Source: Gemmatimonas sp.
Lineage (GTDB): Bacteria > Gemmatimonadota > Gemmatimonadetes > Gemmatimonadales > Gemmatimonadaceae
Direction: 5' to 3'
Length of the DNA: 64,000 nucleotides
Assembly (NCBI GenBank): GCA_011390885.1
Contig: JAABRO010000002.1
Location: 1 to 64,000 of the forward strand
The translations under genes were made by a program, and so were the position numbers. The notes beneath the pieces were generated by a model. It was given only the letters and a program-made list of their open reading frames with translations, was not told where the DNA came from and did no database searches. Each line of letters starts with the position of its first letter. The first letter of the stretch is position 1. Positions 50,371-50,454 of this stretch are shown in pieces.

Positions 50371-50399
50371 GCGCCCGGGTAGCAGGGGCCACCGGGCGC
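50371..50399 (-). terminator. Hairpin immediately after the SAM aptamer, likely expression platform
   Basis: Perfect 8-bp inverted repeat (GCGCCCGG / CCGGGCGC) with a 13-base loop, then TTGCTGTT on the minus strand. Its place between aptamer and metY suggests a terminator used by the riboswitch, although a competing antiterminator is not obvious. Confidence 0.6.
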
Positions 50400-50454
50400 G
50401 TGTGCGTTTTAGCTCCTTGTTTTGCGTGGCGGCAATAGGCGGCAAATCACCACG
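50400..50454 (-). promoter_or_regulatory. SAM-II-type riboswitch aptamer
   Basis: On the minus strand: CGTGGTGATTTGCC (50454-50441), then TATTGCC, GCCACG (50430-50425) closing stem P1 with CGTGGT (one G-U), then GCAAAACAAGGAGCTAAAAC. The conserved blocks GATTTG, TTGC, GCCACG, AAA and GCTAAA in this order match the SAM-II consensus upstream of alpha-proteobacterial metX/metA genes. It is 129 bases ahead of metY. The GGAG in the 3' pseudoknot strand is too far from the start to be the ribosome site. Confidence 0.85.

Follow-up and report, generated by a model that had tools for sequence, protein, structure and literature searches.

A SAM-II riboswitch upstream of metY and a metX-hom fusion in Gemmatimonas sp., with a probable composite expression platform, and its relatives across Gemmatimonadota

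Introduction

Does the leader of metY in the 64,000-nucleotide stretch of Gemmatimonas sp. DNA analyzed here (the window) carry a SAM-II riboswitch, and would such a switch act on transcription, on translation or on both? The earlier note, based on the sequence alone, had proposed a SAM-II-type aptamer that controls metY and a metX-hom fusion, possibly by transcription termination. The riboswitch class is a known one; what is new is the lineage-wide regulon and a leader variant with an additional 5' helix (P0) and a Shine-Dalgarno (SD) hairpin. P0, the SD hairpin and a second genomic SAM-II copy had no place in the earlier description. The features of the locus are compiled in Table 1.

Table 1. 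Features of the metY leader and operon in the window
Feature	Positions	Strand	Basis or remark
P0, extra 5' helix GCGATCG-ACGTC-CGATCGC, abutting P1	50455..50473	-	folds at -10.2 kcal/mol
SAM-II aptamer core (P1, loop L1, P1', junction, GCUAAA tail)	50403..50454	-	RF00521 match
P1 5' strand CGUGGU	50449..50454	-	sequence and model structure line
L1 loop GAUUUGCCGCCUAUUGCC, with P2 pseudoknot 5' strand and GCCGCC	50431..50448	-	sequence
P1 3' strand GCCACG	50425..50430	-	sequence and model structure line
GCUAAA (50413-50408) and ACGCA, 3' strand of the SAM-binding pseudoknot	50403..50413	-	R10-T11 covariation
Terminator-type hairpin GCGCCCGGTGGC-CCCT-GCTACCCGGGCGC	50371..50399	-	-21.6 kcal/mol
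Degenerate U-tract UUGCUGUUG, 3' of the hairpin	50362..50370	-	longest T run 2
GGCGGCACUC element (50361-50352) and the hairpin it starts (50358-50332)	50332..50361	-	conserved GGC
SD hairpin GCACUC (50306-50301) / GAGUGC (50280-50275), GGAG (50283-50280) at the stem edge	50275..50306	-	
metY, O-acetylhomoserine sulfhydrylase, 448 aa	48925..50271	-	PF01053 1.5e-138; TIGR01326 635 bits, above cut-off
metX-hom fusion, 689 aa	46859..48928	-	TIGR01392, NF004976, PF00742

Results and Discussion

Identity of the aptamer

A cmscan search with 4227 families over the entire 64-kb window matched RF00521 (SAM_alpha, SAM-II class) on the minus strand at 50463-50388 with 37.3 bits, compared with a gathering score of 36, and with E=8.5e-5 over the full length of the model (1-79 of 79). 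The E-value was 5.3e-7 when a 401-base local stretch was scanned. The long-loop variant of SAM-II (RF01726) reached 14.5 bits, under its gathering score of 44, and SAM-V had no model match up to E<=10 in 50250-50650, near the metY start; both identities were dropped on score. The proposal of a SAM-II-type aptamer is thus borne out by the comparison with Rfam through Infernal. Direct reading of the sequence also located every motif that had been named, together with P1, in SAM-II order and at the positions claimed: on the minus strand the consensus blocks are GATTTG (50448-50443), TTGC (50435-50432), AAAA (50423-50420) and GCTAAA (50413-50408). The closing pair of P1 is U-G, the same as in the Rfam model. 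L1 harbors GCCGCC (50443-50438), the proposed antiterminator strand, and another GCCGCC (50433-50428) overlaps P1'. The aptamer belongs to RF00521, and family membership and comparison suggest that it binds SAM and acts as an OFF switch. The junction of the aptamer also contains a perfect Shine-Dalgarno sequence, AAGGAG (50418-50413), just 5' of GCUAAA, which likewise occurs at this place in many metY-type leaders.

For comparison, about 160 loci, partly picked by score, were assembled from the phylum, and 160 aptamers from 52 genera were parsed. The third pair of the pseudoknot, formed by L1 position R10 and tail position T11, covaries over 140 distinct aptamers. Standard pairs are present in 108 of the 140 where 65 were expected (G-C 62, C-G 35, A-U 6, G-U 5). 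This number was reached in none of 2000 permutations in which whole genera were moved, and R10 and T11 had played no part in selecting the 140 sequences. The two adjoining pseudoknot pairs are almost invariant. The window itself shows a C50441-A50403 mismatch at R10-T11, which we regard as a mild weakness of its aptamer; a sister locus in the same genus, L035, has C-G. Covariation across the phylum thus argues for the P2 pseudoknot between L1 and the 3' tail, with the window's own pair mismatched.

The terminator-type hairpin

An 8-bp hairpin had been noted right after the aptamer. The hairpin is real, but its length had been understated. Including its flanks it folds at -25.6 kcal/mol (z=-3.3), and it resembles the real terminators adjoining sister SAM-IIs. 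As expected of an intrinsic terminator the hairpin is GC-rich, but an uninterrupted U-tract is missing: the tail TTGCTGTTG has U at 6 of 9 positions and no T run over 2. The site was absent from the list of a strict terminator scan. In the phylum, a hairpin with a T-rich tail was located at 137 of 160 SAM-II loci compared with 37 of 320 dinucleotide shuffles; the finder asked for a hairpin at least as stable as -10 kcal/mol with a T-rich stretch behind it. Although the hairpins of metY-type leaders are stronger than the others (-23.9 versus -17.4), their longest T run averages 2.25 versus 4.60 in other SAM-II leaders (p=2.6e-8, an optimistic value as the sequences are related). L035 harbors no hairpin that passes the terminator finder.

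The hairpin segment GGUGGC (50393-50388) is complementary to the aptamer GCCGCC with one G-U pair, and relatives carry GGCGGC at this place. Contiguous pairing of at least 6 between L1 and the 5' arm plus loop of the terminator was observed in 48% of own combinations versus 27% of genus-swapped ones (interaction p=0.0015), and with Watson-Crick pairs only in 29% versus 8% (p=0.015). A test with swapped partners that used duplex energies across the entire aptamer gave a weaker signal (p about 0.01). In metH leaders of order-level relatives from a sister family, the GCUAAA tail takes the antiterminator role instead and forms as many as 13 contiguous pairs (L016). In both arrangements the strand that would disrupt the terminator is one required for SAM binding, in keeping with OFF-switch logic. 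Pairing of the GCUAAA tail itself with the terminator was seen in the metH leaders L016, L019, L020, L028, L153, L158 and L166. Seven metH leaders (L008, L009, L012, L015, L017, L022 and L025) are without a terminator, and in most of these the start codon lies about 10 bases 3' of GCUAAA.

Terminators at SAM-II aptamers are old knowledge (PMC1273637, PMC2258182). The statement that SAM-II usually masks the ribosome site was mistaken, as predicted terminators are the most frequent SAM-II platform (PMC2258182), and in alpha- and beta-proteobacteria no other riboswitch class is linked to predicted terminators as often (PMC2258182; also PMC1273637). Thus, termination at this locus would be ordinary and no exception. 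Of the termination mechanism suggested earlier, the terminator-like hairpin stands, but the poor U-tract and a conserved SD hairpin downstream speak against it, and a switch that acts in part or chiefly on translation is no less likely.

P0 helix and Shine-Dalgarno hairpin of metY-type leaders

The fold energy of the window's P0, taken alone, is not unusual (z -1.5). The bases 5' of P1 have a mean upstream pairing probability of 0.89 in 26 metY-type leaders, compared with 0.27 in 139 others and 0.44 in shuffles. A perfect P0 stem of 5 or more is present in 15 of the 26 metY-type leaders. Because these 15 comprise 11 distinct stem sequences, the pairing is conserved and not the sequence.

The SD hairpin element is conserved in the 26 metY-type leaders, which come from two genera. 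It consists of GGCGGCACUC...GGAGAGUGCC shortly 5' of the AUG, an arrangement that places the SD at the stem edge. All 26 leaders have GGC 5' of GGCACT, and folding of the hairpin does not require this GGC. The conserved GGC yields GGCGGCA, which is complementary to the aptamer sequence UGCCGCC. The element is longer in the window's genus, with a second hairpin in between; in the sister genus the strict SD-hairpin pattern is mostly present as a single copy per genome, at metY. A role of the SD hairpin as a genome-wide operator was rejected, as even the genus with the most regular form of it mostly has one copy per genome, at metY. P0 and the SD element are common to metY-type leaders and rare or absent in other SAM-II leaders, and neither was found at SAM-II in the literature searched. 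No sigma-70 promoter consensus was found 5' of the leader.

In the predicted folds of L113 and L083 the SD arm is taken up by the 5' half of the aptamer, and in the state without SAM the SD or the nucleotides that follow are partly free. In RNAfold predictions for the window leader the SD is paired in both states, so that no SD switch appears, and most other leaders likewise differ from L113 and L083. Beyond the GGCGGCA core, further pairing between the aptamer and the SD arm stood out in the folds; it was no better than in loop shuffles (p<0.05 in 0 of 26 leaders) and was discarded. L1 scarcely varies among the metY leaders, and the core pairing therefore lacks the variation on which covariation depends.

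The metY operon

The metY ATG at 50271 lies 129 bases from the aptamer, as had been counted before, and Pfam and NCBIfam models confirmed metY and the metX-hom fusion as the genes that follow. The MetX part of the fusion matches TIGR01392 with 263 bits on residues 36-344, under the cut-off of 500. The Hom part is over the cut-off of NF004976 on 374-684, and PF00742 matches as well. As metX-hom overlaps the metY stop through ATGA, the two genes are probably translationally coupled. Upstream on the same strand lies ackA.

One strong match had at first suggested a single hom in the genome; this was wrong. The genome contains two homoserine dehydrogenase domains, one in the fusion and the other in a 1282-codon frame on contig C32, which has no SAM-II match. 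This makes the fusion look like an isozyme dedicated to methionine, so that SAM would restrict this one branch and not homoserine as a whole. The earlier expectation that SAM throttles homoserine formation would thus apply to the fusion isozyme only. The metH gene of this genome is located on contig C49, again without a SAM-II match. Besides the window's genus, two further genera of the family have the metX-hom fusion in several of their genomes, and in many others the two genes are separate neighbors. Among named relatives, those nearest to the fusion come from Gemmatimonadaceae and Gemmatimonas MAGs. A Xanthomonadaceae MAG (L066) encodes a 40% identical relative that spans the MetX and Hom parts.

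Proposed mechanism and alternatives

We consider it likely that this SAM-II functions as an OFF switch on metY-metX/hom with a composite platform, which combines residual termination at 50399-50371 with control of the SD. Comparison supports an OFF switch through RF00521 membership, conservation before metY in two genera and phylum-wide pseudoknot covariation. Points against the composite switch are the score barely above cut-off, the C-A mismatch in P2 and the absence of an SD switch in RNAfold predictions. At high SAM, P1 and the pseudoknot would form and sequester the GCCGCC and GCUAAA strands of the aptamer, upon which the hairpin at 50399-50371 and the SD hairpin of metY could both fold. 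Without SAM, GCCGCC would pair with GGUGGC of the hairpin, causing antitermination, and next with GGCGGCA of the SD element, which would free the ribosome site. Because the U-tract at metY is eroded, translation control probably carries much of the regulation, with termination being weak or residual; this division between the two layers of the platform is what we infer from the leaders. The ATGA overlap would relay the effect to metX-hom.

A purely transcriptional platform, on which SAM would cause the hairpin at 50399-50371 to terminate, with the SD hairpin and P0 as incidental features or stabilizers of the mRNA, is a plausible competitor that we rate at somewhat worse than even. Strong terminators follow most Gemmatimonadota SAM-IIs, including the second genomic copy with its TTTTT, L1 covaries with the terminator, and terminators are the commonest SAM-II platform (PMC2258182, PMC1273637). 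However, the U-tracts of metY-type leaders are significantly poorer despite their stronger hairpins, L035 from the same genus lacks a hairpin that passes the finder, and the conserved SD hairpin is left unexplained. The reverse case, a purely translational platform in which the hairpin is a decayed terminator that now serves as a spacer and SAM governs only access to the metY SD, appears unlikely: it agrees with the eroded U-tract, with the complementarity of the conserved GGCGGCA to the aptamer and with the few metH leaders of relatives that lack a terminator and start about 10 bases past GCUAAA, but the window's SD is paired in both predicted states, residual U-richness persists (6 of 9) and the L1 strand of the core pairing hardly varies. 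A degenerate aptamer at this locus, with metY under the control of the SD hairpin via another factor, is very improbable: a score of 37.3 bits near the cut-off and the C50441-A50403 mismatch would fit, but every conserved consensus block is kept, four of the five genomes of the genus retain the aptamer at metY, and, save for a few unrelated matches, the SD element occurs downstream of SAM-II in metY leaders.

The preferred composite OFF switch can tentatively be placed in a wider picture, which we hold to be possible rather than probable. The window's genus and its sister would have built a two-layer, P0-aided metY platform around one aptamer, and in the rest of the phylum SAM-II would be a general regulator of methionine and sulfur metabolism. 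The 5' half of the aptamer (L1 GCCGCC and the P1 5' strand) would pair first with a decayed terminator and then, over a distance of more than 70 bases, with the 5' arm of the SD hairpin, and the new P0 helix stacked on P1 would assist.

Comparison with known systems

The SAM-II of Agrobacterium tumefaciens metA (RF00521) shares P1, the order GAUUUG, UUGC, AAA, GCUAAA and the pseudoknot, and it also precedes methionine biosynthesis genes and is followed by a hairpin (PMC1273637). The window differs in its Gemmatimonadota host, in P0 abutting P1, in the weak U-tract, in the extra SD hairpin and in the GCCGCC of L1, which is complementary to each of the two elements further downstream. For Sinorhizobium meliloti metA, a single SAM-II is reported to act in two ways. 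Like the window, that leader combines one aptamer with a terminator hairpin and a distant start codon, and it has the translation control that is proposed for the window; there, however, the SD is part of the riboswitch and serves a start codon situated 74 nt downstream (PMC9373788), whereas in the window it is located beside the start codon in its own hairpin. S. meliloti metZ likewise has SAM-II and a hairpin 5' of a sulfhydrylase gene, where an attenuated transcript of about 100 nt was detected, but its terminator is described as a typical Rho-independent one (PMC9373788) and the U-tract of the window is poor. A combined control of transcription and translation by SAM has also been proposed for the tandem SAM-II/SAM-V of Candidatus Pelagibacter ubique, which uses two aptamers (PMC11508383), whereas the window has no SAM-V match.

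Distribution and regulon in Gemmatimonadota

SAM-II had been described as known mainly from alpha-proteobacteria and marine metagenomes. It is not confined to these: RF00521 matches were obtained in 262 of 395 genomes sampled from the phylum, in 165 of 179 genomes of the host's family, Gemmatimonadaceae, and in all five of the window's genus, four of which have the copy at metY. None of 14 control genomes gave a match to RF00521, and no SAM-I match reached the cut-off in 79 genomes of the family. The literature searched contains no mention of SAM-II together with Gemmatimonadetes or Gemmatimonadota; Rfam itself may list such matches.

The genes 3' of the phylum's SAM-IIs were grouped by longest ORF and similarity, and individual assignments are provisional. 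They comprise metH, the commonest, metF, metY, metX, metK, thrC or hom, and panB, and further cysN/C, a sulfite/nitrite reductase-type gene, cysK, a sulfurtransferase and an ATP-grasp/FMN monooxygenase pair. In alpha-proteobacteria, metY is the sole core SAM_alpha target and hom, metA, metX and metC are occasional ones; hom-metXC operons under SAM_alpha in Hyphomonadaceae set a precedent for a SAM-II-controlled hom (PMC4239095).

Several loci deserve separate mention. The second SAM-II copy of the window's own genome (L199:6079-8105; contig C25, G000:C25:11168-11239) scores 32 bits, below the cut-off. It is followed by a terminator ending in TTTTT and then by genes for an ATP-grasp ligase, whose substrate is unknown, and for an FMNH2-dependent monooxygenase with kinship to SfnG/alkanesulfonate monooxygenases; three genera share this gene pair. 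The arrangement suggests that SAM controls the scavenging of organosulfur compounds. SAM-II-like elements also stand 5' of metK, the SAM synthetase gene (L075, L129), and, with a divergent P1 (CGCGG) and a hairpin, 5' of a MoxR/AAA ATPase gene (L078, L126, L131), which is no obvious methionine gene. In three genera SAM-II is found before or near panB, encoding ketopantoate hydroxymethyltransferase (L003, L023, L026, L030, L040), a link to one-carbon or pantothenate metabolism.

SAM-II is a small and structurally well-studied class whose regulons have until now been mapped chiefly in alpha-proteobacteria. Its presence in two thirds of the sampled Gemmatimonadota genomes, at genes that range from sulfate activation to metH, metF and metK, widens this known range and provides many natural expression platforms with covarying antiterminators. 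The metY leaders in particular allow control of termination and of translation to be compared around one aptamer within a single family. If the wider picture outlined above is true, SAM-II would have a role in the rest of the phylum comparable to that of S-boxes in Firmicutes.
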